Shown here: positions 36,333 through 51,025 of the stretch, piece by piece
Numbering within the stretch: position 1 is the first letter of the stretch
Layout: each line of letters opens with the position of its first letter
DNA from: Nitrospira sp.
GTDB taxonomy: Bacteria > Nitrospirota > Nitrospiria > Nitrospirales > Nitrospiraceae
NCBI GenBank assembly: GCA_022226935.1
Contig: CP092081.1
Coordinates: 1 to 64,000, forward strand
DNA: 64,000 nt
Direction of reading: 5' to 3'
Program-made: the position numbers and the translations under genes
The notes under the pieces: generated by a model
Seen by the model: only the letters and a program-made list of their open reading frames with translations
The model's database searches: none
Told to the model about the DNA's origin: nothing

Positions 36333-36380
36333 TTGGTGCCCCCGACACGAATTGAACGTGCGACCCGCGGTTTAGGAAAC
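36333..36380. repeat. attL, 48-bp direct repeat
   Basis: Identical over 48 bases to 50948-50995. It is the displaced 3' part of tRNA-Arg(CCT), from the anticodon loop to the CCA end, without the 5' half. Recombination in the anticodon loop is usual for tyrosine integrases. Confidence 0.93.
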
Positions 36381-36528
36381 AGGCCGGGACAGATTTTAAA
36401 ACGCTCGGTGTATCAATGGTTTCCCCATTTTTGACTGCCAAAACAGATACTTGTGTGCCTTCCACTGATTCGATGGATTCGAGGGGTATTGGTCGATTTT
36501 GAAAATTTTTAGCACAAATTTAGCACAG
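36381..36528. repeat. Left-end arm sequence, copy 1
   Basis: 148 bp directly inside attL, closely similar to 41893-42040. It ends in the doubled motif TTTAGCACAAATTTAGCACA (36508-36527), which also occurs at 50884-50903 next to attR. The position fits integrase arm-binding sites. Confidence 0.8.
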
Positions 36529-36598
36529 CAGTTTCCACCTGCTTTTCTTGAAGCCGCCTAGTTCCGTGCAAAAGGCGGTTCTGACCTTTTATGAGGCA

Positions 36599-37486
36599 TT
36601 AGTCCAGAACGACAGTGACTTGCTCGGCTCGTAACAACACGATTGATGAACCAATAATGAGCGCCGCACTCACAACGACCCAGAGCGTCAAGGGTTCTCC
36701 AAAAAATATTGCGGCAAAGACAATCGCGTAGACCGGCTCAAGGGCAATGAACCCGCTGCACGTCGTGGCTGACAATCTCTTCAACGCAAACAAGTAGAGT
36801 TGGTGCATGAATGCCGTCGTCACTACTCCGAGGAGCATGAGGCACACCCAGTCAGTGGTTGTGTGGGGCGCGTGCGAGTTGAAAACGAGAGTAGGTGTGA
36901 GGCATAAGGCCACCGTGAGATTTTGTATCAAAGAAACCATGAGGGGCTGTATTTGGGTGGTCAGGATTTGTGCCTTGATTCCAAAAACGGCAAAAGACAA
37001 TGCCGATCCGAGCCCAACGATCGCGCCAGTGAGTTGTGCATCAGAATCTTTCGCATCAACCAACAACGCCACTGCCAGAATAATCGCAAGTCCAGCTCCG
37101 AGTTCCAACAGGCTTGGGCGTCGGCGCGCCTTCATCGTTACAAGGAGAACAGTAAACAGCGGAAACACTGCGAACGTCAGCGTCGCGATTGCCACACCGG
37201 CAAGCTGGACCGATAAGAAGAAGGTGACCCAATGAATCGCCAGCAATATGCCTGTCACGAGCAAGCCCCTAAGCTGTGCGATGGTAGGAAACAGGCCCAG
37301 GCCTCCACGCAATAGGCCAACTGCGGCTATCGCAATCGACGCAAAGGTTCCTCTCATCATCACAATCCAAAATGGTGAAATATCCAATTTCCCATATAGT
37401 GCAGCCGTGCCAAAGATGATGGCCGCAAGATTGATGGCGATAAGTCCCGACCTCTGAGTTTCTTCTGTCCTGACGGCTGTAACCAT
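36599..37486 (-). CDS. EamA/DMT-type membrane transporter
   Basis: A 295-residue protein with ten hydrophobic segments in two similar halves, the drug/metabolite transporter plan. The second half ends SGFIALEPVYAIVFAAIFFG followed by the final helix pair, a hallmark of EamA proteins. The substrate is unknown; exporters of amino acids or metabolites are common in the family. It lies alone between attL and a degenerate att remnant, so it may be its own acquired block. Confidence 0.9.
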   Translation of the reverse strand: MVTAVRTEETQRSGLIAINLAAIIFGTAALYGKLDISPFWIVMMRGTFASIAIAAVGLLRGGLGLFPTIAQLRGLLVTGILLAIHWVTFFLSVQLAGVAIATLTFAVFPLFTVLLVTMKARRRPSLLELGAGLAIILAVALLVDAKDSDAQLTGAIVGLGSALSFAVFGIKAQILTTQIQPLMVSLIQNLTVALCLTPTLVFNSHAPHTTTDWVCLMLLGVVTTAFMHQLYLFALKRLSATTCSGFIALEPVYAIVFAAIFFGEPLTLWVVVSAALIIGSSIVLLRAEQVTVVLD

Positions 37487-37638
37487 ATTTCCCCAATGAC
37501 CGCAGGCGGTATGTTCGCCTCGTCCTGGTCGGAGCCCTACATTTCTATAAAGGCGAGCCAGTGAAAATGTAAAACTACTCGGGCTCTCTGAGAAAGGTAA
37601 CGCAGGGGATTGAGTGAAAGGAATGATCGAAATGTTGA

Positions 37639-37672
37639 CGCGGGGCTTACGAAACAGGCCGGGGCAGATGTT
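37639..37672. repeat. Degenerate att-like remnant
   Basis: The stretch CTTACGAAACAGGCCGGGGC and its neighbours match the junction at 36370-36400 with few differences, including the inner AGGCCGGG and CAGAT. It lies 5 bp beyond the fic stop codon. It looks like the trace of an earlier insertion end. Confidence 0.55.
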
Positions 37673-37677
37673 CCCTC

Positions 37678-38784
37678 TTACTCTATCACTGGCGTGAGGC
37701 TATAACTTGTGTTCTTGCTGCCACCTTCATTGCGAATGAGCACCCCTCGATCAATCAGTTCTTTGATATCACGCTGGGCAGTGGGCATCGAACATTTTGC
37801 AAGCGCTGCCCATTTTCTCGCTGTCAGTTTGCCCTCAAACCCGTCGAGCAATCGATTCAACACTTTCCGTTGGCGTTCGTTGAGCGCGAGACCGGTATGG
37901 CGTTGCCAGAACGCGGCCTTACGCAGCACATCCGCGCATCCCGTCTCGGCAGCCTCGATCGCATTGGCCACGCATTCAACAAACCACAGCATACGCGGCG
38001 TGATGTCGAGATCACCTTTCTGAGTGACTTCGAGCGAGGCGTAATACTCGGGGCGCTCGCGATGAATCTGTCCCGCCAGGCTGTAGAATCGCTGTGGGGA
38101 CTGTTCCGAGCGTGCAAGACTCCGCTCTGCGAGCGCGCGTGCAATTCTGCCGTTCCCATCGTCGAAGGGATGGATGGTGACAAACCAGAGGTGTGCGATT
38201 GTCGCATGGAGGATGCCGTCGATCGTAAGGGGTTCATTCAGCCATGCGAGAAGCATCTCCATCTCAGCATCCACTCGCTCAGCTGGGGGTGCTTGAAAGT
38301 GAACCTTCTCACGTCCGACCGGACCTGAGCGAACTTGCATGGGACCATCGGCATCGTCTCGCCACCCTCCGGTCTTTATCTTGCGCACACCGGAATAGCC
38401 AGTTGGAAACAGCGCGGCCTGCCACCCATACAGTCGCTCCCGAGTGAGAGGGGTATCCAGTTGGCTCGTCGCATCGAGCATCATCGCAACCATGCCCTCA
38501 GTGCGTCGGTCTTCCGGACCAAGGGCGGCCCCAGGCACACCAAGCCGGCGTGCCACCGAGGAGCGGACACTCGACGGGTCCAATCGTTCGCCTTCTATTT
38601 CTGCACTTTTGACGGCCTCTTCCGTGAGAGCCAGAAGTTCCGCCTCAAGGCGCAGCTCAAAGCCCAACTGCATCATTTTTCCAAGGAGGCGACCTTGCTT
38701 CAGGTGGGCCTTGCCGAGCGGGTTGAGCAATTGCTCAGCATTCCAGCGGAAGTGTGGCCAATCAGGTAGTTCCCAGATATACAT
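37678..38784 (-). CDS. Fic-domain AMP-transferase with C-terminal winged helix
   Basis: A 368-residue protein. The N-terminal helical region (DUF4172-like, MYIWELPDWPHFRW) contains the self-inhibitory helix motif SAEIEG. The Fic motif HPFDDGNGRIAR (about 214-225) is intact, so transfer of AMP to a target protein is predicted. The C-terminal part (ALNERQRKVLNRLLDG, CSMPTAQRDIKELIDRGVL) is a winged helix-turn-helix. The gene starts right at an array of six operator-like half-sites, so I infer that the winged helix autoregulates transcription. Such proteins can act as toxins or as regulators; no separate antitoxin gene is visible. Confidence 0.92.
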   Translation of the reverse strand: MYIWELPDWPHFRWNAEQLLNPLGKAHLKQGRLLGKMMQLGFELRLEAELLALTEEAVKSAEIEGERLDPSSVRSSVARRLGVPGAALGPEDRRTEGMVAMMLDATSQLDTPLTRERLYGWQAALFPTGYSGVRKIKTGGWRDDADGPMQVRSGPVGREKVHFQAPPAERVDAEMEMLLAWLNEPLTIDGILHATIAHLWFVTIHPFDDGNGRIARALAERSLARSEQSPQRFYSLAGQIHRERPEYYASLEVTQKGDLDITPRMLWFVECVANAIEAAETGCADVLRKAAFWQRHTGLALNERQRKVLNRLLDGFEGKLTARKWAALAKCSMPTAQRDIKELIDRGVLIRNEGGSKNTSYSLTPVIE

Positions 38785-38881
38785 ATTCGCCTCACATTAT
38801 GATGCGAATATACGCCTATTCGCATCATAATGCTAGCTATTCACATCATCATTTGAGGTGAATGCGAGCTCATTCGCCTCA
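38785..38881. promoter_or_regulatory. Array of six operator-like half-sites before fic
   Basis: Ten-base half-sites of the form ATTCRCMTCA occur at 38785(+), 38800(-), 38818(+), 38839(+), 38854(-) and 38872(+). The first three and the last three have identical spacing, so the array is a 54-bp module used twice. Within it a 16-bp perfect inverted repeat spans 38795-38810 and 38817-38832. The first site touches the fic start codon. Binding by the Fic winged helix is inferred. Confidence 0.75.
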
Positions 38882-38998
38882 TTGGGCGGGAATAGGGAAC
38901 TCTCCAACGAGCTAGGGTCGAGTCGGTGCGTTAGAGAAGCTTGGCTCGTTTGCTCGTGAGGTGGCTAAGATGACTGGGGACTCACTAGGAAATCCTGG

Positions 38999-39133
38999 GT
39001 GGGTCTTTCTTCTGGCGGTGGCACAGGCGACGACGAAATTTCTGACGCCCGGGCACTGGGAGCGGGCATTGTGCTTCTGGCGATGTTGCTGCTGCTAGTG
39101 ACTCTCCTCGTCAACCTCGCCGCTGCGGCTTAG
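38999..39133 (+). pseudogene. Possible remnant of a membrane protein C terminus
   Basis: An in-frame stretch ends ALGAGIVLLAMLLLLVTLLV followed by a short polar end and TAG. It resembles the last helix of an ABC permease such as PstA or PstC. There is no good start: GTG 38999 lacks a ribosome site and the frame closes at a TAA about 45 bases upstream. It may be a gene scrap or a 44-residue peptide gene. Confidence 0.3.
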
Positions 39134-39366
39134 TAGACCACCCTTCTCGTTTGTTGCCGTCCGTCAGGAGACGACATCCTATAGAGGTCGCAGCCGGTTG
39201 TTTTTGCCGCTGCGTGGCTTGCAGATCCGCCATGCCTCATGCCTAAATCAGCCATCGTGACTTCACCATCATCGATGCAACGACTGAGCATCACTTCTGT
39301 CACTACACTCAGACAGGAGCACGAGCGTACCATGCAAAAGATTGGTCAATTTTAGTGCGTCCGTCC

Positions 39367-40230
39367 TCAGGCACAGCCCGTCTTCGGTTTCGCCTGAGCT
39401 GTTTTCGTTTGCTCTTCTGCGAGGTATTGTTTGGCCTTTTCAAGTTGCGACACTGCGCGTGGAAAGGGCGCAATGTGAATGGCCTTTTCCCACTGTACGA
39501 TGGCTTCTAGGTAGCGGCCTGTGCACATCAGAAACGCAGCATAGTCGCCATACGCGTAGGCGCTGGCCGGATTCAAGGCGATGCCCTCCTTCAGCAGCTG
39601 TTCCCGTAACGCGGCGTTGCCTCCGACTTTCGCCACACTTGCCCGATGCACGAGAACCATCATCGAATGGTGTGGAAGTGCTGCCGCCTGTTGCGTGCGA
39701 TTAAAGGTGTGAGTAGCTTCGGCCACGTGACCTTGCTTCTCATGCCAGATGCCTTTGAAGTACCATGGGTAGAAGCTATCTGGGTCAAGCGCTTTGGCTT
39801 TCGCAATATGTTCGGCGGCCTCGACAAACTCTTTCCTGACTATTAAGACCCGTGCCAGCTGCGCATGCGCTGCGCCAAGATTCGGATCCAAGCTCACCGC
39901 CTGCCGCGCATGGCCTAATGCGTCCTGCACCACTGTTCCAGCAAACGTGGTGAGATCATACCAGTCGCCAATGTTATACCCACCGACCAGGGTTCCCAGC
40001 GAAACCGCGGCATAAATAAACGCCTCATTGCGGTTCTGGTCTGCCGCCAGATTAATCTTGGTATAGGCATCCTGCAGGTGTGCTCGACTGAACACGTTGG
40101 CTTCGATTGGATAATAGGCCTCATGGGCAGTGCCCGTGGCGTGCCCTTGTCTGCGGGTGGCACTGATCACAAGCACCCAGCCGAACGATTTCATGGTGAT
40201 GGACATCGCGTCCCCCCGCGTGAACCGCAT
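39367..40230 (-). CDS. TPR-repeat protein
   Basis: A 287-residue protein with tetratricopeptide repeats from about residue 90 to 270 (for example AVSLDPNLGAAHAQLARVL, AKALDPDSFYPWYFKGIWHE, GIALNPASAYAYGDYAAFL). The family makes protein-protein contacts. The N terminus, MRFTRGDAMSITMKSFGWVL, hints at a weak signal sequence or a damaged start. No catalytic domain is present. It lies alone between the fic control region and gene fragments. Confidence 0.78.
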   Translation of the reverse strand: MRFTRGDAMSITMKSFGWVLVISATRRQGHATGTAHEAYYPIEANVFSRAHLQDAYTKINLAADQNRNEAFIYAAVSLGTLVGGYNIGDWYDLTTFAGTVVQDALGHARQAVSLDPNLGAAHAQLARVLIVRKEFVEAAEHIAKAKALDPDSFYPWYFKGIWHEKQGHVAEATHTFNRTQQAAALPHHSMMVLVHRASVAKVGGNAALREQLLKEGIALNPASAYAYGDYAAFLMCTGRYLEAIVQWEKAIHIAPFPRAVSQLEKAKQYLAEEQTKTAQAKPKTGCA

Positions 40231-40543
40231 CTTTTACCGCACGAATACCTAGGCACTCGTGCACGATCTTTCCACGCCCGTCTCATCTCAGCAGGCGTTG
40301 AGTGAAAAGATGTTTCGACTTGGGTCGCTAGTCAGTGGCGGAAGGGGCCGTATCCGCGGGCTATCACCAATTTCTGCGCCGAGGCTTCGCAACATTTCGC
40401 GAATGGCTTCTATGTTTCTGTAACTTTTCCCATAATCCAACGAAGTTATCTTCATAGCTGGAGCGCTACGAAGCTTTACCCAAGCATAGTCATTCCCCGC
40501 ACCTGCTTGGTTACACTGCACGCCCTTTTGCGGGGCGTGCAAC
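40231..40543. other. Stretch without a supported gene
   Basis: About 310 bp. A minus-strand frame of 84 codons (40288-40542) lacks a ribosome site and a recognisable domain; part of it (MKITSLDYGKSYRNIEAIRE) reads like protein, so a gene scrap is possible. No repeat or RNA gene is seen. Confidence 0.4.
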
Positions 40544-40738
40544 CTATTTGAGGCGAGTCCCGACGCGAATTCTAGAGCGGTCTACGATGATGAGAGACGT
40601 GGTGAGTTCAGCCTCGGTAACCTCGCTGAGCAATCGTCCCAAAGCCTGCTCGGTTTCTTCGATCATGGTCGGCCAAACCCGAAGACGCACAATGCTATGG
40701 TGGCGATGCACTTTCAGGAAGTCGGGCGCGGTGCACAT
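40544..40738 (-). pseudogene. C-terminal fragment of a DUF5615 PIN-like protein
   Basis: The frame encodes HHSIVRLRVWPTMIEETEQA, ALGRLLSEVTEAELTTSLII and VDRSRIRVGTRL, which matches the end of DUF5615 proteins (toxin-like, PIN fold). The N-terminal half with the catalytic acids is missing: an in-frame TGA closes the frame just upstream. It is probably the remains of a toxin-antitoxin pair. Confidence 0.45.
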
Positions 40739-40873
40739 CCAGAAGACGGATGGGCTCTCGTTTCAATGGTTGGACGAGGGCGGGTCCTGCTTGGATCAGG
40801 AAAAATCCCTTGTTGAAGCTCGTACCTTTCATGCCTATCATGGTGGACCGACACTCTCGCAAAGGAGGACGCC

Positions 40874-41752
40874 ATGAAGGCCCAACGCTCTGATGATATG
40901 CGCCCGACCCCCGATCCGGCTGAGGATAACGCCTTCTTCCCTTCAGCCTATTCGCTTGGGAAATTCACGTCCGCCAAGTCCGATCTAGGGGAGACTGATT
41001 ATCCCAACGCCTATCGAGGTGGTCGATGGAAGGTGCTCATGATTGCCACCGATGAACGCTACTTGCTCATGCAGAACGGCACCATGTTTTCGACGGGCAA
41101 CCATCCCGTCGAAACGCTATTGCCCATGTATCACTTTGATAAGGCGGGGTTCGAGATCGACATCGCGACGCTCTCAGGCAATCCCGCAAAACTGGAGCTC
41201 TGGGCCCTACCCAAAGAGGACCAGGCCGTCCTGAGCATCTTCGCAAAATATCGCGACAAATTGAAACACCCGCTCAAACTGTCCGACGTGGTCGAACACA
41301 AGCTTGACGACAAATCCGATTATATCGCTGTCTTTATCCCCGGCGGCCATGGTGCCCTGGTCGGGATTCCCTCTAGCTCAGATGTGAAAGCCGTCCTGAA
41401 GTGGGCCGTCAAACGGGACAAGTACATTGTTTCGCTGTGCCATGGTCCGGCGGCACTGCTGGCAGCAGCAGTTGGCGAGAACAAGGACACCTATCTCTTC
41501 AAGGGCTACAGTATTTGCGTCTTCCCGGATTCCATCGATCAGAAGACTCCAGACATTGGCTACATGCCCGGTCAACTCCAGTGGTTCCTCGGCGAGAAAC
41601 TGAAGGCGCTTGGGGTCAAGATCGTGAATACCGATATCACGGGCCTGACGCATCAAGACCGGCGATTGATCACTGGGGATAGTCCGTTTGCCTCGAACAA
41701 TGTTGGGAAGGCGGCGGCAAAGGCCCTGCTCGATGAGGTCGGTGGCGGCTAA
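40874..41752 (+). CDS. hchA: Hsp31-type glyoxalase III / protein deglycase
   Basis: A 292-residue DJ-1/PfpI superfamily protein that aligns along its whole length with E. coli Hch[20 protein letters not shown]-like [39 protein letters not shown], nucleophile Cys in [10 protein letters not shown], and [12 protein letters not shown]. It converts methylglyoxal to lactate and acts as a chaperone. A strong AAAGGAGG lies before ATG 40874. It is the last gene before the internal att junction. Confidence 0.94.
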
Positions 41753-41845
41753 GATACACACAAACAGCCGAGGAAGAAGAACAAGAGACGGGTACGCTGC
41801 GCACGCATATACGAATCCCCGCCATCAATGTAGGTCTTTTAGAAA

Positions 41846-41892
41846 TGGAGCCGGCGAGTGGAATCGAACCACCGACCTGCGGTTTACGAATC
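41846..41892 (-). repeat. tRNA-Thr(CGT) 3' fragment, internal att-like junction
   Basis: Read on the minus strand this is the 3' part of a tRNA: loop TTCGTAA, stem ACCGC, T arm GGTGG-TTCGATT-CCACT, acceptor half CGCCGGC, T and CCA. The 5' half is absent. The break is in the anticodon loop, exactly as in attL, and the next bases match the left-end arm sequence. Confidence 0.85.
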
Positions 41893-42040
41893 AGGCCAGG
41901 GCAATTTTTGAAACGCTCGGTGTATCAAATGGTTTCCCCGTTTTAACTGCGAAAACAGGCGCTTGCGTGCATTCTATTGATTCGATGGATTCGAGGTGTA
42001 TGGGTGGGTTTTGAAAATTTTTAGCACAAATTTAGCACAG
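41893..42040. repeat. Left-end arm sequence, copy 2
   Basis: 148 bp closely similar to 36381-36528, in the same orientation and equally placed inside a tRNA 3' fragment. It ends in the same doubled motif TTTAGCACAAATTTAGCACA (42020-42039). It marks an older or second left end of an integrase-related element. Confidence 0.82.
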
Positions 42041-42056
42041 GATTTTGTGCCCAATT

Positions 42057-43199
42057 TTACACCTCAATATTAGTAACACGTGATGTGATCTTCCACGTTA
42101 CAAATTGTTGGGTGCCTGGAAGTAAGGCTGTAGGGGGTTTCGGATAATCAGACATGCACATGGCTTTTATTGCATCCTGTTGGCCTCTGTCTAACCCCCG
42201 CCACCAAAGCGGTGAAAAAAATACATTCTCACCGAACTCGAATAAAAACTTAACTGTCGCCTGAACAAGGCGATTGTCCTCAAATTCCTCCATGCTTCTA
42301 ACGAGCCGTCGGCCGACATTGTTTGGTTCGTTTAGCCATGCGAAAACCACTGCTCCACCTTTGTCAGTCGCAATCGAACTGCAAGTGATAAGGTCAGCTT
42401 CCGATCCGGACATACCTAGAGCTACTAAGTTCTGCAAGAATCTTCCGCTGAAATCATATTCGGGGTTGCATCCGAAACTGCACATTATGTCGGGGCATCG
42501 GTCGAGTTCCATCACGTAATAGTGGATCTTGGAGTAGTCCCCGGAATTTAGGCAGTCATCATATTTGATTTTTTCTTTCTTCAGCATCTTCATTCCAACT
42601 TCAAGCCCGTCTTTTCTAACGTTAAGATACTGCTGCAAGAATATTTGGCTTGTAAGATCTTGGCCTTTGTCCATGTTCCTCTGGAACCGTATGCTTTCCA
42701 ATGCTGCCGCCTTAGTAAAGATTTCGCGGCATATCGCACGGTAAGCAAGCAGCAAATTATGTTCTTTCTTATTTGATTCATAAGCGTGCTGTTCTATTGG
42801 TTCGAATGTTCGAGAGTCGTGATGGTAGCAAAATCCTGTAAAGGTCGAAGCATCCTTTACGCCTGCTCGCTTTGCCTCAAAGGAACCTCCATTGGTGATT
42901 AGCTCTTGCAGGCTTGGCTTAAAAGCGAAACCCATGACATGGCCATTCTCTGCTATGCGAGAAAGCCCCCCCATTCTCTGTATCGTATGGGCTTTAACTA
43001 TACCCCCCTTGCAGACTGATGGATTAGCGCTAGGGTGAAGACAATACTCAGATTTGAACTGTTTCCTCAGTTTGTCATCAAAAACAAATGGGCGCAGAGG
43101 AGCTTGCTTATGCCTATCTAAATGGCAATCTTTGTATTTGTCACCGGACCCACACCAACATGGATCATTCGGGCTGTTGTGCAAGACGATTTTAGGCAT
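42057..43199 (-). CDS. SEC-C protein with HNH-like cysteine/histidine core
   Basis: A 380-residue soluble protein. The N-terminal SEC-C metal motif DPCWCGSGDKYKDCH uses Cys14, Cys16, Cys25 and His26. A second potential metal centre follows: Cys53 and Cys63, then KAHTIQ with His71, and FCYHHDSRTFEPIE with Cys124, His126 and His127, arranged like a treble-clef (HNH-type) fold. The rest is alpha-helical. I cannot name the family; nuclease activity is only a suggestion. It starts 3 bp after the protease gene ends, so the two are co-transcribed. The DNA is visibly richer in AT than the core genome. Confidence 0.8.
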   Translation of the reverse strand: MPKIVLHNSPNDPCWCGSGDKYKDCHLDRHKQAPLRPFVFDDKLRKQFKSEYCLHPSANPSVCKGGIVKAHTIQRMGGLSRIAENGHVMGFAFKPSLQELITNGGSFEAKRAGVKDASTFTGFCYHHDSRTFEPIEQHAYESNKKEHNLLLAYRAICREIFTKAAALESIRFQRNMDKGQDLTSQIFLQQYLNVRKDGLEVGMKMLKKEKIKYDDCLNSGDYSKIHYYVMELDRCPDIMCSFGCNPEYDFSGRFLQNLVALGMSGSEADLITCSSIATDKGGAVVFAWLNEPNNVGRRLVRSMEEFEDNRLVQATVKFLFEFGENVFFSPLWWRGLDRGQQDAIKAMCMSDYPKPPTALLPGTQQFVTWKITSRVTNIEV

Positions 43200-43202
43200 G
43201 TG

Positions 43203-44090
43203 CTACTGCTGCGTTCCCTTATTGAGCTCGAAGTTTTTATCCTTTTCTCGCAGGTCATCGCGTCGAATTAGATCAATAACGGCATCTGCAGGGACAATAT
43301 TTGCGAGACCCGAATTTTCCTCAAACACCACGCGGGGCCTTTTAGTCTGTCCACTGTAAGCGGTATCTACATAAGATATGAAGTTGGAGATTAAACCTAT
43401 TAACCTTTCCTCGTTTATCAGGTTCGACGAGAGGCCCTGACCAAACTTAAGCGGAGGCGAGTAGAGAACTGGGCCGCCACTGTTTCCAGGAAAAACGAAC
43501 GAATCAGCGATAATTCCATCTGAATCTGAGCGCGCGACCATTCCTTGTCTCGCAATAGGGTTTGCATATGCTGTCGATCGAAGACCTAGTGGAAATCCGA
43601 GCACAAGAAGCCTAGCACCAACTTTGATGTCCTTATGGGAGAGAAACATCCTCAACGGAATTGTCTTAAACTTGGGCTTACCTGTCCAAGCAATGAATCT
43701 ACATGCAACGTCATAATCAGACGAGAAATACCAGTGACCAGCGTTATGGCGTTCGACCTCTTCGTTCTGAAGTAGCACCGACCCTCCGCTCGATTCATTA
43801 AGACGATATCTGAGATTGGGCTTCACTGCTCCAGCCTTTTCGACTATCACATGCTTTGCAGTTACCAGCAGCACGTGCCCTTTTTCAGTTTCGACAAGAA
43901 ACCCTGTTCCTATCGGGCTTAACTTTGTCTTCCCGTTCTCTATTTCTTCGACTTCGATCGAAACCACAGTATCAAGCCATTGATCATTGAAAAATGACGT
44001 TTCTCCACGGACTGGTACATCTCCTAAAGCTGAGCTTCCACAAAACAGAACAGCAATTACTGCAACAATGAATGGGAATGGCGGTCTCAC
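43203..44090 (-). CDS. Exported trypsin-like serine protease
   Basis: A 295-residue protein with a signal peptide (FPFIVAVIAVLFCGSSALG). The S1-type triad is complete: His80 in LVTAKHVI, Asp127 in SSDYDVACRF and Ser204 in FPGNSGGPVL. There is no PDZ domain, unlike DegP, so substrate recognition must lie in the protease or a partner. It lies 3 bp upstream of the SEC-C gene and 246 bp downstream of the helicase gene on the same strand. If part of one system, it would act outside the cytoplasm, which is unusual. Confidence 0.88.
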   Translation of the reverse strand: MRPPFPFIVAVIAVLFCGSSALGDVPVRGETSFFNDQWLDTVVSIEVEEIENGKTKLSPIGTGFLVETEKGHVLLVTAKHVIVEKAGAVKPNLRYRLNESSGGSVLLQNEEVERHNAGHWYFSSDYDVACRFIAWTGKPKFKTIPLRMFLSHKDIKVGARLLVLGFPLGLRSTAYANPIARQGMVARSDSDGIIADSFVFPGNSGGPVLYSPPLKFGQGLSSNLINEERLIGLISNFISYVDTAYSGQTKRPRVVFEENSGLANIVPADAVIDLIRRDDLREKDKNFELNKGTQQ

Positions 44091-44336
44091 AATCCAGTCT
44101 CCTTATCCTGCCTAGGCTGCCCGCAAGAGATAATTTGCTCTTCCTGATGTCTAGATAATGCATTTCATTTTGAGCCGTCTCTCTGAGAGGTCGAAATTGC
44201 ATAAGAAATCGACGGGTACGGGCTAGCCTTCTCGAATAGATCTAGACCTGTGCGAGTATTTCGACGCGCCCAGTTTGAGAAAGAGGTTCGGGAATATCAC
44301 CGTCAGATACCAAAGCAGGTCAATAGCGTAGGCCCC

Positions 44337-47300
44337 TCAGGCTTTTCCTCGGATAGACTGCCAGTAGTCAGTCGAAGCACATACCGGCATGCACTGCGCA
44401 AGATGGGCAAAAGCGCCAGCGTCTTTCCAGGCTCTGTGACTGCCGACCACATAGAGCCGTCTTTTAGCGCGAGTCACTGCAACGTTTAGTAGATTGGGAG
44501 GATGTCCAGCCCACCTGCGGGCTCCAACCGATACGCCGAGCGGAGCTCCTAGAACGAGCACGACACTATCTGCCTCCTTGCCTTGAAAAGTATGAATAGT
44601 TCCAATTCGGTTATTCGTCCAGTCCCATACCCCTCCCGGTAGGCGCTTGGCGATTGATGGGTTACGCCGAACCATCTCGCGTAGCTTAGCGGATACAATC
44701 CGAAACGGGGTGATGACAAAGATGTCAGGGTCGTTAAGCCCTTCATCCAGGAGCGTCAGGAGCAGATGGAGTGCCACCCTGCCTTCATCCTCTGCCCACT
44801 TCCCAACAGCCTCTCCCTCAACATTTATCCAAACGCTCTTTCCTAGGATTTGGCCGATATTCGAGGTTGCGGAACGTGTCCCATACACCATTAATCCGTC
44901 GTAAGCGACGTGGTTGGAAATCTTAAACATTGGTTCTTCGCATCGTCTGTGCACTCTCAATGGTGAGCCAATCCAAAGGTCGCCATCTGCTGTATTAAGC
45001 GAGGTGCCAAACCAGCTGACTCGATCTGCGAGAGCCTGAGCTGACATATCTGGTCCCGCCCACTCATCAGCTTCTACATTGAATTCTCTAAAAATGGATC
45101 GAATCAGCCTTGGTGGTATTGTTACGACTGGCTGAATCTGTAAAGGGTCTCCAATCACGATGGCGCGTTTCGCACGCCAAAGTGCGCCCACCGACGCCTG
45201 TGGAACCGCTTGACCAGCTTCATCGATCAGAAGCCATCCTAGTTCCTCTTTTCCGAGGCTCCCCAAAAGGCGGCCAGTGGAGGCGAAGGTAGTTGAGACA
45301 ACCGGGACCGCCAGAAAAAGAGTTGCCCAAAGCGATCGCCTTGCAGGTTCCTGCTTGTCAGACAATGTCCGCCCTCGCATTAGGTCCAGCGCCGCGCGGA
45401 GGTTATGCCGCAGGTACTTCGCGGAGGCATCAATGAATGCGCGATGGAGTGCAAAGGCGGCTGCAAAAAGTTCGTCGCGTGAGGCCTGGAGATCCTCACA
45501 AATCCAGGGCGAAGCACATTGTAGGTCGATATCGTTTTGCGCCCAGAAAGCGTCATCGGCGAAATTAGCACCAACGAGCTTCCTCCCAATATTGATCACC
45601 CTGAGGTTGTCAGAAAGAATGCGATTTGCATTCACTGTTTTTGTCTCAGCATCTGCTGCGTGATGCTGTGAGACAGCAACCTCCCTCTTAGAATTGTCAA
45701 CGGCCTCGGCAGAAGCGAGCGTACGCAAGCGTGCGCCCTTAACTTGTTCGACGGCTACCGTTATTTGATTTCGCCATTGCCGGTATGTACGCGTACAAAA
45801 AAGACGGGCAAAAAAACCAGGACGCAGACGATCAAGAACATCGCGATCCTCAATCGCCTTGCGCTCTCCGGCCGATGCCATCTCGTTTGATCGACGGGCC
45901 TCTTCGGCTTTAGCTAATGATTCACCGAGGGTTTGTTTTGCCGCCGCGAGCAGTCGCTCGGCTTCTTCAGCGGTTCTAATCAGGCTAGGCCTTTGACGAA
46001 GCGCCTCATAGGCCTCCTGATTGCGTTTTTGTAGCCCTTCCGCGATCTTGAGTTTTGCGAGAAAGTCTGAACGTGTGAGCCGCCAGCGTTGAAGTGCATC
46101 AATCTCACTGCGGGGAGGTTGCTCAATACTTACTACATCCAGAATTTCCTGCACTTCGCTATATTCTTCCTTCTCGTCATCGTCCGGCGGTACATCGCCA
46201 CCAGTAACCGCCTTGAGATAGAGGGCCATTCCCCGTTTCTTATGCCACCAAAAAGAATTGATAAAAGCCGCTCGATTGGCCGCATTCCCTAGCACGGCTG
46301 CCGCAAGTCCCCAAGTCGCTCCGTCGATAAGTGGTCCATTGCCAGCGGCGACTGCGTCTGCAATTGACTGAAAGTAACGCAGGGGCGGATTGAAATCATT
46401 GGCTACGGCGGAAGAAGACGGTATTTCACGGCTAACGTTCTCCACGGCCTTATTATTGGATGAAGCAACCACGATTTCGTGACCATGCAAACTGTGGTGT
46501 AGCCGATATAGGTGGCTGTAAGCCTGTCCGGTTCTCATGGTGGTAACGTGCTCAAACGCCGTCTCGGGCTTTTCAAACTTGGACATAGCGATCGCACGAT
46601 CCAGCACGACCTTTGCCACGATGTCACGTAGGAGCGTGGTCTTCCCAGTCCCTGGAGGACCATTGACCGCAATGAGGCCACTGTTCTTTAGTTCATCGGC
46701 TGCGTGATTAATAGCCGCTTGCTGCATGAGAACGAGGGGGTACCGGCCCTGGCTGGGCCACCGGGCGAGAGGCATTCTGGTTGGTGCGAGCGTCTCCGAG
46801 AGGAGATTTTTACTGCGTATGACATCCTGTCGACTGCGAGCAGGAGCGACGCGCATATATGCAGAGAGCGCTTGTCCGACATCTCCCAGGTTGAAGGCTT
46901 TTCGGGTTTTTACAAGGTCTTCAATAAAGAAACTGTTTAGGAGCTCAGGGGTCGGCGCCTCGTTATACAAGCCCCATTGTGGGACCCGGATTGCCACTCC
47001 TGGGCGAAGAACCTCTTCTGTGGGAATATTAAGCTTATGTATGAGCCACTCGATCGTCTGATCGATTTCGGCTGCCCCCAATGGCTGTATTTCACCATCC
47101 TTGCTCCTGATTATTAGCCGACTTTCCAAGTCAGCTTTAATTGCGTGCTCGGCATCAATGAAACCAGCGAGCTCTTTGAGCTTTCCGGCTCGCAATCTCC
47201 CGTAACCCCAGGCGAAACTAGACAAGAAGGTTCTGTCAATGACCGGGCGACCTCGCGCATCGAGTACAATAACCGCAAGTGTAGTTCTCCCACGGACTTC

Positions 47301-48059
47301 GCTACGCTCGTCAGATGCATCATCAGGAAATACTTTGACTATAGTTTCGAGGGCTTTGGCAAGTTCAATCTCGCCCAAGTACACAAGCCAAAACACCGCC
47401 CGTTCTCTTCCATGTTTGCCAAATCGAGGATCGTGCCATGGTTCCGGGATCTCTTCGAGCCTTATGAGCTGGCTCCGCGCAGCTTCGAGATCTTGTTGAT
47501 TGGGCATCGGCTGGGGGGTAAGAACCTCGAGAGTGAGCCATGCCGCAAGAATGGAATCGGCTCCCGGATGCTCCATTGGAGGACTTACAGGCTCTTCGGA
47601 AAGAGTGGGAGGGAGGGAACCGTCTCCTACAACTGACGGATGAGGGGAGCTATTCCTAGAGCATCGATCATTGCCCTCGGCGCTTTGTGTTTCAGTCAAA
47701 GTGGTCCATGCACTGGACAGGGAAGAAGCGCTACCTAGAGGTGATGCTGCCTTAGCTTTTTGAACGATCTCCTCGGCAGGCATCGATGGGGGGGTGGCAA
47801 GTATGGTTGGAGCAATGCCCGCTCTATCCTTCGATGGAGGGCTCTCCGGATCGGGAGTTGGTTTCGTGACCGTGTGAGGTGGCTTGCCTCTCAATGCTTG
47901 CTCCACGTTCGAGCGAAGCGCTATTGCCCTATTGGTACTGCGGTGTTGAAGCTCGTTGTGTAATGCCTGAAGTGTTTCGATCTCATCCTTCGATGAGTGA
48001 AAGAGCCTCTCAAGGTCAGCAATGTTGGATTTAAAATATGGCCTTGGCGGCATTGTCAT
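44337..48059 (-). CDS. Large superfamily 1 helicase with DEAG box
   Basis: A 1240-residue UPF1/DNA2-like (COG1112-type) helicase. N-terminal helical domain (1-57), a polar Pro/Ser-rich linker (about 58-165), and a mixed domain (about 170-400). Then Walker A GPPGTGKTTL (467-476), a long insertion with coiled coil (about 655-820), Walker B as LLIDEAGQAVPQ (943-954), GDPLQIQPVV, ITPFR, TIHTFQGKEADSVVLVLG and NVAVTRAKRRLYVVGS. No nuclease or kinase domain is obvious. Long DEAG-box helicases of this kind are known from phage defence (Mokosh), but the extra Mokosh domains are not seen. Substrate, DNA or RNA, is unknown. ATG 48059 is an early in-frame start. Confidence 0.9.
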   Translation of the reverse strand: MTMPPRPYFKSNIADLERLFHSSKDEIETLQALHNELQHRSTNRAIALRSNVEQALRGKPPHTVTKPTPDPESPPSKDRAGIAPTILATPPSMPAEEIVQKAKAASPLGSASSLSSAWTTLTETQSAEGNDRCSRNSSPHPSVVGDGSLPPTLSEEPVSPPMEHPGADSILAAWLTLEVLTPQPMPNQQDLEAARSQLIRLEEIPEPWHDPRFGKHGRERAVFWLVYLGEIELAKALETIVKVFPDDASDERSEVRGRTTLAVIVLDARGRPVIDRTFLSSFAWGYGRLRAGKLKELAGFIDAEHAIKADLESRLIIRSKDGEIQPLGAAEIDQTIEWLIHKLNIPTEEVLRPGVAIRVPQWGLYNEAPTPELLNSFFIEDLVKTRKAFNLGDVGQALSAYMRVAPARSRQDVIRSKNLLSETLAPTRMPLARWPSQGRYPLVLMQQAAINHAADELKNSGLIAVNGPPGTGKTTLLRDIVAKVVLDRAIAMSKFEKPETAFEHVTTMRTGQAYSHLYRLHHSLHGHEIVVASSNNKAVENVSREIPSSSAVANDFNPPLRYFQSIADAVAAGNGPLIDGATWGLAAAVLGNAANRAAFINSFWWHKKRGMALYLKAVTGGDVPPDDDEKEEYSEVQEILDVVSIEQPPRSEIDALQRWRLTRSDFLAKLKIAEGLQKRNQEAYEALRQRPSLIRTAEEAERLLAAAKQTLGESLAKAEEARRSNEMASAGERKAIEDRDVLDRLRPGFFARLFCTRTYRQWRNQITVAVEQVKGARLRTLASAEAVDNSKREVAVSQHHAADAETKTVNANRILSDNLRVINIGRKLVGANFADDAFWAQNDIDLQCASPWICEDLQASRDELFAAAFALHRAFIDASAKYLRHNLRAALDLMRGRTLSDKQEPARRSLWATLFLAVPVVSTTFASTGRLLGSLGKEELGWLLIDEAGQAVPQASVGALWRAKRAIVIGDPLQIQPVVTIPPRLIRSIFREFNVEADEWAGPDMSAQALADRVSWFGTSLNTADGDLWIGSPLRVHRRCEEPMFKISNHVAYDGLMVYGTRSATSNIGQILGKSVWINVEGEAVGKWAEDEGRVALHLLLTLLDEGLNDPDIFVITPFRIVSAKLREMVRRNPSIAKRLPGGVWDWTNNRIGTIHTFQGKEADSVVLVLGAPLGVSVGARRWAGHPPNLLNVAVTRAKRRLYVVGSHRAWKDAGAFAHLAQCMPVCASTDYWQSIRGKA

Positions 48060-48526
48060 TGGTACTCAATTAGTAAGTAAAAAGCGATCATCCTCTTCGG
48101 CCCAATATCAGTCAAGAGATCGTTGCGACCTCAGAAAACGGAATGAGTTCGATGTTAGCCGGCCAATCTGCACACATAACCACACATAAGCATCCATACG
48201 CCTACTTCCTTTCCTGACCTCCCTGCCCGATAATTTGTCCACTATTTGTCCCCTACTGTCCCTTACTGGCCTCTGGTGGGTACTTTACTTAGTACTTGCC
48301 GTTCACATAGGGTTGGAACACCCAATAAACGACCCGGGGACCGCGATTACACGCAGATGGGAGCCCTGTTCACAGCAGCACCGTCGTCCGTCGCCGGGAG
48401 GCGAAGCCGGTCCGCGCCGCATGCCGGCAGGCTGCGGGGCGGACCGGAATGGCCCCCGTCTTGGTAACACGGGGGCAACACGGGGGCGCTACCTACAGCG
48501 CTCCGTACAGGAGTTCGATAGCGTCC
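48060..48526. other. Divergent control and origin-like region
   Basis: 467 bp between the helicase and the replication initiator. It holds a direct repeat CACACATAAC/CACACATAAG (48171-48190), decamer repeats of the form TTTGTCC/TGTCC/TGGCC at about 48234-48270, a long GC-rich hairpin (48407-48447), a second hairpin (48452-48476) and an 11-bp tandem repeat. Such a cluster beside a rep gene fits an origin of replication or transfer. Confidence 0.6.
48407..48476 (+). other. Two hairpins: candidate rolling-circle origin
   Basis: CCGGTCCGC (48407-48415) pairs with GCGGACCGG (48439-48447), with an inner CCGCA/TGCGG stem. Next, GCCCCCGT (48452-48459) pairs with ACGGGGGC (48469-48476) around the loop CTTGGTAAC. 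The loop resembles the CTTG nick context of some rolling-circle plasmids. AACACGGGGGC is repeated directly at 48466-48476 and 48477-48487. The link to the Rep protein is inferred. Confidence 0.5.
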
Positions 48527-49654
48527 ATGGAGTCGAGCTTCACCCTCACCATCGACTGGCTGGCGTTTACGGTCCTGGCCAGCAATCCGCAAGAGACCAT
48601 GAAGGTGCTTGGTGGGGACTGGAGCAAGGCCAAGGGTGGCTTCAGAGGCTATCCCCTGTCCTGGATGCGGGCAGACGGCCTGCGCGGGGTTGGCAAACTG
48701 GGCACCAATGCGCCTCGTCGTCCGAATGAAATCCATGTGGATCTGTCGGGCGGCCTCGCGTCCGCCCTAACACTGGATCAAATCCGCACCCTGCTCAAGT
48801 GGGTGCATACTCAACAGGGCCACGTCACGCGCATCGACTGTGCCTTGGATGACCGAGCGGGCGCAGTACCGGTCTCGACCATTCGAGAGGCCGTCGCTGC
48901 CGGTCAGTGTGTGACGCGTGCCGCACAGGTCCGGCATATCGTCTCCAATCTGACGCACGGCACCGGAGCAACCACGGGCGAGACGATGTATTTCGGCAGT
49001 TCACAGAGCCAGACCTTGCTGCGGATTTATGACAAACGGCTCGAACTCCAGAGCAAAGGACAAGAGAACTGGCATGAATACGGGACTCGATGGGAGTTAG
49101 AGCTCAAGAAGGATCGGGCCGAACAGTGTGCCCGAGCATTGGCAACTTTAGACGAAGCCGACTGGAAGGAGTTGGTGGTCTGCCTCCTGAGATCGTATGT
49201 GGACTTCCGGCAGATTCCGAAGGATGCCGAGGATGAAGAACGGTACCGGGCTCCCGTGTTGGAGTGGTACGCCCTCCTGCCGGAGGGATTTCAGAAAGGG
49301 CGATTGGCCCAGGAAAAGCAGGTGCAGACCCTGCAGAATGTGAAACGATGGGTGAGTGATACCCTGACGCCGATGTTGGCGGTCATTTGTACCACCCCTG
49401 GAGGGGAAGAATGGCTACTACAGGAAATTGTCAGGGGGCATTGCTCGGTGGAAAGACCGACACCGCAATTTGCTCAAGCAACCACCCAATCGGTTTCACC
49501 GGTCTGCCGGCGGTCACGCGGGCAGCCCATGCTAGGGGGACTGGGGGTGTCGGCAGACTCCCCCGGTGGATCTGCACATGCTCACCGTCAAAGAGCTCTC
49601 GGCCTGGCTCAACATCAAACAATCCACACTCTATCTCTGGGTTTCAAAAAATAA
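48527..49654 (+). CDS. Replication initiation factor (Rep_trans type)
   Basis: About 375 residues. The pattern FTLTIDWLAFTV, IHVDLSGG, GHVTRIDCALDDRAG, TMYFGSSQSQTLLRIYDKRLE, WHEYGTRWELELKKDRA is that of the PF02486 family, which nicks origins for rolling-circle replication and can act as a mobilisation relaxase. I start at ATG 48527 with AGGAG 13 bases upstream; ATG 48449 is also in frame. The last about 26 residues overlap the HTH gene in another frame and look non-native, so the original stop may have been lost by a small frameshift. Confidence 0.85.
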   Translation: MESSFTLTIDWLAFTVLASNPQETMKVLGGDWSKAKGGFRGYPLSWMRADGLRGVGKLGTNAPRRPNEIHVDLSGGLASALTLDQIRTLLKWVHTQQGHVTRIDCALDDRAGAVPVSTIREAVAAGQCVTRAAQVRHIVSNLTHGTGATTGETMYFGSSQSQTLLRIYDKRLELQSKGQENWHEYGTRWELELKKDRAEQCARALATLDEADWKELVVCLLRSYVDFRQIPKDAEDEERYRAPVLEWYALLPEGFQKGRLAQEKQVQTLQNVKRWVSDTLTPMLAVICTTPGGEEWLLQEIVRGHCSVERPTPQFAQATTQSVSPVCRRSRGQPMLGGLGVSADSPGGSAHAHRQRALGLAQHQTIHTLSLGFKK

Positions 49655-49886
49655 AATCCCTTGTCGTCGCATTCATGGCCTCGTCCGCTTTGAACCTGAG
49701 GCGATTGAGGCCTGGCTAAACGGTTTTGAGGCTAGTCCTGGCAAGGCCTTTTCACTGCCGACTCATGACGACACCCGCGACGTGGACCAGCTCATTGAAG
49801 CGGCCAAATCCGAGGTCTATACTCGCGGCGGGGAAACCATCACACCGAGCCCACGCACGAAGGAGGAGCAGCATGGGGCTCGTTAA
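49578..49886 (+). CDS. Excisionase-type helix-turn-helix protein
   Basis: A 102-residue DNA-binding protein. The N-terminal MerR/excisionase-like HTH reads LTVKELSAWLNIKQSTLYLW then RIHGLVRFEPEAIEAWL. The C-terminal tail is polar. I use ATG 49578; GTG 49566 is possible. It overlaps both the end of rep (77 bp) and the start of the integrase gene (14 bp), the usual compact order rep-xis-int. It probably guides excision of the element. Confidence 0.83.
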   Translation: MLTVKELSAWLNIKQSTLYLWVSKNKIPCRRIHGLVRFEPEAIEAWLNGFEASPGKAFSLPTHDDTRDVDQLIEAAKSEVYTRGGETITPSPRTKEEQHGAR

Positions 49887-50943
49887 ACGAAACAATATCT
49901 GGTGGATGTCATTTACGTTTCAAGGGCAGCAGGTGCGCCGATCGACCGAAACCTCGGACAAGAAGTTGGCCGAAGCCATCCTCAGCAAAGTCAGGGTGCA
50001 GATTGTGGAAGGAAAGTACTTTGACAAGCCCAAAGAGGAAGCTAGGACATTCCGAGAGTTGATGGATCGGTATTTGCGGGAGCATGCCAGTCGACGGTCG
50101 GGCTACCGTCGATATGTGAACATGGTCACGAATCTGACCGCGCATTTTGGCAATCCCAAGTTGGAACACGTGACACCCAAAACGATCGTAGCCTTTAAGA
50201 ACAAACGGTATGCGGATGGGGTTACACCGGCCACGATCAATCGCGAATTGGCGCTTTTGAAGAAGGCCTTCAATTTGGCGTGTCGCGAATGGGAATGGAC
50301 CAAGGACAATCCGGTGTGCCGGGTATCCATGGAACGGGAGAACAACACGCGGGATCGTTGGCTGACGTGTGAGGAGGAACGACGCCTCCTTGCGGCTTCA
50401 GCCCCGTGGCTACAGGAAGTGATCGTGTTCGCGATCCATACCGGGATGCGATGTGGGGAAATTCTGAGTCTCACATGGGCTGGTGTGGACCTCAACCGAC
50501 GAACCGCCACGGTGTTTAAATCGAAAAACGGGGAGCGGCGGACCATTCCGCTCAGTCACACGCTCGTGCAGGCTCTTCAGAACAAAGCCCGTGGCCGGCG
50601 CATGGATTCGGAGTTAGTGTTTACAAGCGCAGCTCACACACCGTTGGATGCTCCCAACTTACGACGGAGTTTTAGATTGGCGCTGAAGCATGGCCAGGTG
50701 TCGGATTTCCGATTCCATGATTTGCGCCATACCTGTGCCACTCGCATGGTGCAGGCGGGTGTGGACTTGTACAAAGTCCAACGGATTCTGGGGCATAAGT
50801 CGCCGATGATGACGCAGCGGTATGCGCACCATTATCCGGAAAGTTTGCGGGATGGGGTGGCGATTTTCGATGCGGGAAGGCCGTTTAGCACAAATTTAGC
50901 ACAAGGGGGGATTCGGCCAGAGCAGGTTTCGCTAACCTGTTGA
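49873..50943 (+). CDS. Tyrosine site-specific integrase
   Basis: A 356-residue phage-type recombinase. An N-terminal arm-binding part (WWMSFTFQGQQVRRSTETSD) and SAM-like core-binding domain (60-150) lead to the catalytic domain with Arg193 in TGMRCGEIL, HDLRHTCATR (His282, Arg285), His308 in LGHKSPMMT and nucleophile Tyr317 in QRYAHHY. AGGAGG stands 6-7 bases before ATG 49873. The codons for FSTNLAQ near the C terminus are themselves the doubled arm motif TTTAGCACAAATTTAGCACA. It ends 4 bp from attR in tRNA-Arg. Confidence 0.95.
   Translation: MGLVKRNNIWWMSFTFQGQQVRRSTETSDKKLAEAILSKVRVQIVEGKYFDKPKEEARTFRELMDRYLREHASRRSGYRRYVNMVTNLTAHFGNPKLEHVTPKTIVAFKNKRYADGVTPATINRELALLKKAFNLACREWEWTKDNPVCRVSMERENNTRDRWLTCEEERRLLAASAPWLQEVIVFAIHTGMRCGEILSLTWAGVDLNRRTATVFKSKNGERRTIPLSHTLVQALQNKARGRRMDSELVFTSAAHTPLDAPNLRRSFRLALKHGQVSDFRFHDLRHTCATRMVQAGVDLYKVQRILGHKSPMMTQRYAHHYPESLRDGVAIFDAGRPFSTNLAQGGIRPEQVSLTC
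50884..50904 (+). repeat. Arm-type repeat inside the integrase 3' end
   Basis: TTTAGCACAAATTTAGCACA plus A, the same doubled 11-base motif as at 36508 and 42020. All three copies have the same orientation. It is 44 bp from attR and would be the right-arm integrase site, encoded within the gene for the enzyme that binds it. Confidence 0.75.
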
Positions 50944-50947
50944 AAAA

Positions 50948-50995
50948 TTGGTGCCCCCGACACGAATTGAACGTGCGACCCGCGGTTTAGGAAAC
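50948..50995. repeat. attR, 48-bp direct repeat
   Basis: Identical to 36333-36380. It is the 3' part of the intact tRNA-Arg(CCT) gene from the anticodon loop to the CCA end plus one base. Confidence 0.93.
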
Positions 50996-51025
50996 CGCTG
51001 CTCTATCCAACTGAGCTACGGGGGC
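50949..51025 (-). tRNA. tRNA-Arg (anticodon CCT), integration target
   Basis: A 77-nt cloverleaf on the minus strand. Acceptor stem GCCCCCG pairs with CGGGGGC, with A and encoded CCA. Anticodon stem GCGGT/ACCGC encloses TTCCTAA, giving anticodon CCT. The gene stays intact because the element carries the same 3' sequence. Confidence 0.96.

Follow-up and report, generated by a model that had tools for sequence, protein, structure and literature searches.

The three minus-strand genes at 42057-48059 of the window (the whole 64,000-nucleotide stretch of Nitrospira sp. DNA analysed here) are the interchangeable cargo carried by a small integrative element in tRNA-Arg(CCT), which has a sister family in tRNA-Thr(CGT). 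They encode a SEC-C protein, a trypsin-like protease and an SF1 helicase, and they are probably a stack of separately acquired candidate defence genes, likely directed against phages or other elements, rather than one three-gene system. The features of the region are as follows.

36334-36380, plus strand: outer left boundary of the 14.6-kb island, a direct repeat of the tRNA-Arg 3' end (47-48 bp)
36508-36527: arm site, exact copy of TTTAGCACAAATTTAGCACA
37678-38784, minus strand: Fic protein of the neighbouring unit (SoFic-like, 4e-41)
41846-41900, minus strand: att site, left end of the cargo unit, tRNA-Thr(CGT) type (tRNA 3' half and core)
42020-42039, plus strand: arm site TTTAGCACAAATTTAGCACA, with exact copies at 50884-50903 and 36508-36527
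about 42046-48169: cargo slot, with no nucleotide match in 18 sister elements and shared sequence on both sides
42057-43199, minus strand: SEC-C protein gene, 380 aa (Pfam PF02810 SEC-C, 4.6e-9)
43203-44090, minus strand: trypsin-like protease gene, 295 aa, GTG start (Pfam Trypsin_2, 4.9e-10)
44337-48059, minus strand: SF1 (COG1112/Upf1-like) helicase gene, 1240 aa (Pfam AAA_11, 4.3e-17; AAA_12, 1.3e-11)
48449-49654, plus strand: replication initiator (Rep_trans, 1.9e-33), common to sister elements
49566-49886, plus strand: HTH_17 excisionase-like protein
49876-50943, plus strand: tyrosine integrase, 93-99% identical in 13 genomes of the same genus
50884-50903, plus strand: right-end arm site, copy of TTTAGCACAAATTTAGCACA
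50949-51025, minus strand: intact tRNA-Arg(CCT), right att site

In those 13 genomes the integrase stands beside the same tRNA-Arg, and in eight relatives the site is empty, the same flanking genes lying 0.8-1.1 kb from tRNA-Arg. Given these empty sites and the tRNA-Arg 3'-end repeat at 36334-36380, the stretch 36382-50948 is a 14.6-kb insertion. It has the features of a tRNA-integrated island, namely an integrase beside an intact tRNA, a displaced 3'-end repeat and an empty site in relatives. The layout of the cargo-bearing element is att and arm site, cargo, Rep-Xis-Int, arm site and tRNA. About 200 bp of the att region at 41846-41900 are 94-96% identical to the ends of most tRNA-Thr elements (90% in G000's own and 93% in G025), as against 79-88% for elements at tRNA-Arg; tRNA-Thr elsewhere in the window's genome holds a related element, whose integrase is 74% identical. 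Since an att site of tRNA-Thr type thus lies inside an insertion bounded by tRNA-Arg, the island is a hybrid array of two units. Its order across 36334-51025 is a tRNA-Arg-type att, a unit with EamA, SoFic-like Fic, TPR and PfpI genes, a tRNA-Thr-type att, the unit with the three genes, and tRNA-Arg. The Fic-TPR stretch (37673-40711) has an 88-90% match in the G025 tRNA-Thr island and its Fic gene a 94% match in G023, so that units appear to move between tRNA-Arg and tRNA-Thr sites. A simpler reading, in which 41.85-51.0 kb is a single element with only one pair of ends, was rejected, its left end being of tRNA-Thr type, its right end of tRNA-Arg type and the outer repeat lying at 36334.

These elements resemble tRNA-integrated islands and satellites that are hotspots of defence cargo (P4-like elements, Tn7-like cargo) in their tRNA target, tyrosine integrase and excisionase, short backbone, swapped defence cargo and empty sites. 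They differ in that the element here carries a Rep_trans initiator, no phage packaging gene being noticed, and in having att sites of both tRNA-Arg and tRNA-Thr, in hybrid and tandem form. The initiator scored 46.7 bits against the NCBIfam MobT relaxase model, for which the cut-off is 600. A literature search found no description of these tRNA-Arg/tRNA-Thr elements, which does not in itself prove that none exists.

The limits of the cargo emerge when the island (36382-50949) is set against 18 sister elements, all from Nitrospira-type genomes. Nearly all of these share its left end (41846-42045) and its right end (48170-50949), and none matches 42046-48170, which makes the block of three genes exactly the variable slot. 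The other slots hold a retron II-A reverse transcriptase (3e-104) and NDT (1e-53) together with DUF4917/PDC-S21 (1e-88) in G017; a dCTP deaminase (7e-151) with TIR-HEAT in G001; TIR (2.7e-27) with a GGDEF-like protein in G004; NACHT-NCH1 (4.5e-40) in G006; AbiTii (2.5e-35) in G025; and patatin and MBL proteins in G024. Genes for PIN, LanC-like kinase, radical SAM and lipoprotein products, which do not look like defence, are found in sister slots as well; defence genes are frequent in the slot but do not have it to themselves. With the defence genes of the sister slots and the SoFic-like Fic of the neighbouring unit taken together, the defence association of the slot is well supported.

A first-pass annotation of this DNA had placed three open reading frames on the minus strand at 42057-48059, with a 3-bp spacing between the protease and SEC-C genes, in an AT-richer block that it took for mobile cargo in a defence-like setting. 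All of this is upheld here: the frames are present as placed, 3 bp separate the protease stop from the SEC-C ATG, the mobile element is evident from its att ends, integrase, tRNA and the empty sites of relatives, and the setting agrees with the sister slots and with the neighbours of the helicase family described below. The block is indeed AT-richer, unevenly so, with a GC content of 45.4% in the SEC-C gene, 46.4% in the protease gene and 53.3% in the helicase gene, against 59.0 +/- 2.2% in the flanking chromosomal ORFs (n=31). The helicase and protease genes are 246 bp apart, and a scan for promoters and terminators between the three genes gave nothing exceeding shuffled controls.

The protease has the features of an S1 peptidase, a His-Asp-Ser triad with GNSGGP. 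The triad (H80/D127/S204) is complete, as had been claimed, and the H and the GNSGG are invariant in relatives. Its hydrophobic N-terminus reads by eye as the signal peptide proposed at first pass, and its closest relatives also start with one; an exported, proteolytically active enzyme is predicted. These relatives (46-56% identical) have a scattered distribution (Desulfobacterota, Nitrospira, Omnitrophota and Ignavibacteria), most being lone genes whose products start with a signal peptide, and one further relative (41%) is in Lentisphaerae. No match was found in the plasmid and phage collections, nor any defence association of the closest relatives. A distant relative in L051 (8134-10233) lies 6 bp after an endonuclease/exonuclease/phosphatase-like gene, in what appears by eye to be a conflict island. 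In G025 the slot of the tRNA-Thr element holds, besides the AbiTii gene, another exported protease of the trypsin-like kind (L190:8221-9387; Trypsin_2, 2.9e-16).

The third protein shares with SEC-C motif proteins an N-terminal SEC-C zinc motif (residues 11-27), but within its own family the motif is accessory. L219, L221 and L222 lack it and keep only the second Cys/His core, so that it is the core that defines the family. This core (C53, C63, H71, C124, H127 and D128, in the pattern C/C/AH/GFCxxHD) is conserved, in agreement with the first description of the protein; the label "HNH-like" given to it there finds no support from profile or fold. The core matched neither HNH nor any other Pfam model, the whole protein likewise gave no HNH match, and PHROGs and NCBIfam gave no family beyond the SEC-C motif. 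The structure model of the protein (pLDDT 89) found nothing at E <= 0.001 in the PDB and viral libraries, the best VIA Z being 4.7, within the range of common arrangements, and the core modelled alone, a poorer model (pLDDT 73), had no significant fold match; we assign no fold, and an HNH identity is at most possible. The family is uncharacterised and its Cys/His core unclassified. Its members lie singly in P4-like and P2-like elements, at prophage ends and in rhizobial and lactococcal plasmids. At some prophage ends (L203, L204, L210 and L211) they directly follow umuDC-like genes, and these loci mostly adjoin a YedK/SRAP-like host gene, as judged by eye.

Whether the three genes belong together was addressed across genomes. 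A survey of 396 genomes of the phylum found the helicase family in 9, the SEC-C family in 8 and the protease family in 3; no genome but the window's combines any two of them. Profiles of all three families, run over about 80 protease loci (from 84,980 species) and 33 other loci, found two families together in 0 of 113; none of 40 viral SEC-C loci has a helicase or protease partner, and 14 viral helicase loci gave no second example of the trio. The co-occurrence beyond this element that the first-pass annotation had put forward as a check on its proposal therefore came out negative. Since no other locus holds two of the families, the phylum genomes that carry them are disjoint and GC stands at 45-46% against 53%, the cargo probably goes back to two or more separate acquisitions, that of a solitary helicase and that of an AT-richer pair of protease and SEC-C genes.

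It might be asked whether this pair is itself a functional two-gene unit independent of the helicase, for example an exported effector with a cytoplasmic partner. The 3-bp spacing would suit such a unit, as would the near-identical GC of the two genes, both far below the helicase. However, none of the six readable protease relatives at >=40% identity (L050, L061 and L063-L066) has a SEC-C neighbour, and none of the SEC-C relatives examined has a protease neighbour, which makes the two-gene unit unlikely; in the nearest two protease relatives (L049/L062 and L060), the contig ends exactly where the SEC-C gene would lie, and the pair is unreadable there.

The helicase was first described as a DEAG-box SF1 protein of 1240 residues, and so it proves to be. 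Its Walker A motif begins at residue 467, and DEAGQ (residues 946-950) is invariant across ten aligned sequences of a coherent family of about 1150-1240 aa. Among PADLOC models it matches MkoC (2.6e-53) and MkoA (6.9e-28), the MkoC profile match reaching only position 949 of 1136. Mokosh types I and II are defined by a PLD-family nuclease, fused in type II or encoded by a neighbouring gene in type I (PMC11672841). The helicase here is of the COG1112 type with a DEAG box, like MkoA and MkoC, but is without a PLD nuclease, fused or adjacent, and has a protease and a SEC-C protein as neighbours; profile searches found no PLD match in the helicase, the protease, the SEC-C protein or the element genes. 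The link to Mokosh suggested at first pass thus stands as kinship at profile level, membership in Mokosh itself failing for want of the nuclease.

Members of the helicase family recur beside known defence systems. The closest full-length relative of the window's copy (56% identical) is on a viral contig (L235:3189-13339), in a row with PD-Lambda-1 (2e-163) and a complete QatABCD (3e-91, 4e-15, 5e-96 and 8e-60). As for plasmid copies, one is near Septu PtuAB and others are followed by Mrr/type IV nuclease genes. In Nitrospira-type genomes the usual place of the family is beside uvrA: five of them (L052, L053, L054, L058 and L059) have a relative as a single gene at one fixed place, with ubiE and uvrA on its two sides. 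In two of these, L054 and L058, the side of the helicase that faces uvrA has a gene for a GHKL-type ATPase (537 and 531 aa, recognized by eye). The fixed spot would be in keeping with a repair or maintenance enzyme that has no part in defence, the cargo then being a mixed bag of adaptive genes. Against this, the ubiE-uvrA copies are accessory, most genomes of the genus having none, and are partly broken (an in-frame stop in G007, a truncation in G025), whereas the closest full-length copy has a known defence system on either side and others are near Septu or type IV nucleases. We therefore consider a pure repair function quite improbable; a defence role is likely and a repair role possible.

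The first-pass proposal that the trio is one defence or conflict module, in which the helicase would sense phage nucleic acid while the protease and the SEC-C protein would serve as sensor or effector at the envelope and in the cytoplasm, would account for the shared strand, the single slot, the 3-bp spacing and the lack of any promoter or terminator signal above chance between the genes, but it is very improbable indeed, as the genomes and the protease, viral SEC-C and viral helicase loci surveyed above hold no second case, each family is found alone, GC is unequal among the genes, and protease and helicase would work in different compartments.

For the stack of separately acquired genes that we prefer, the company of the slot and of the helicase family points to protection against phages or other elements as the likely role, and each gene might contribute in its own way. 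The helicase may act on invading nucleic acid as an SF1/Upf1-like translocase, driven by ATP and with no dedicated PLD partner. The protease, once exported, could act beyond the cytoplasm by cleaving phage particles, receptors or targets in the envelope. In Salinispora, a trypsin-like protease located near defence genes is secreted and inactivates phages extracellularly (PMC13175485). Like it, the protease described here would be an exported trypsin-like serine protease with a G[DN]SGGP motif near defence genes, but the Salinispora enzyme has a twin-arginine signal (PMC13175485) and the present one an ordinary-looking signal; the Salinispora enzyme is a functional precedent and not a claim of homology. 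The SEC-C protein, which occurs alone elsewhere, may likewise work alone, as a cytoplasmic zinc-binding effector or nucleic-acid binder. These anti-phage functions and mechanisms are read from sequence and context.

Taken further, the elements could be undescribed carriers of defence cassettes that swap units between two tRNA genes through near-identical att cores of the anticodon loop, and the slot here could hold an exported anti-phage protease along with two solitary families of defence genes, likewise undescribed, namely a Mokosh-type helicase without PLD and a SEC-C/Cys-His protein; we put this forward tentatively. A sharply bounded slot that holds varied known defence systems in sister elements is a good place to seek new ones. 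Candidates for defence by a single gene are two families that recur in prophages, satellites and plasmids as well as in slots of this kind: the COG1112 helicase without PLD, and the SEC-C/Cys-His family, for which we found neither a Pfam model of the core nor a structural match. Finally, it has recently been proposed that secreted proteases can act extracellularly against phages, and the exported proteases in two slots, that of the window and that of G025, are relevant to this idea.
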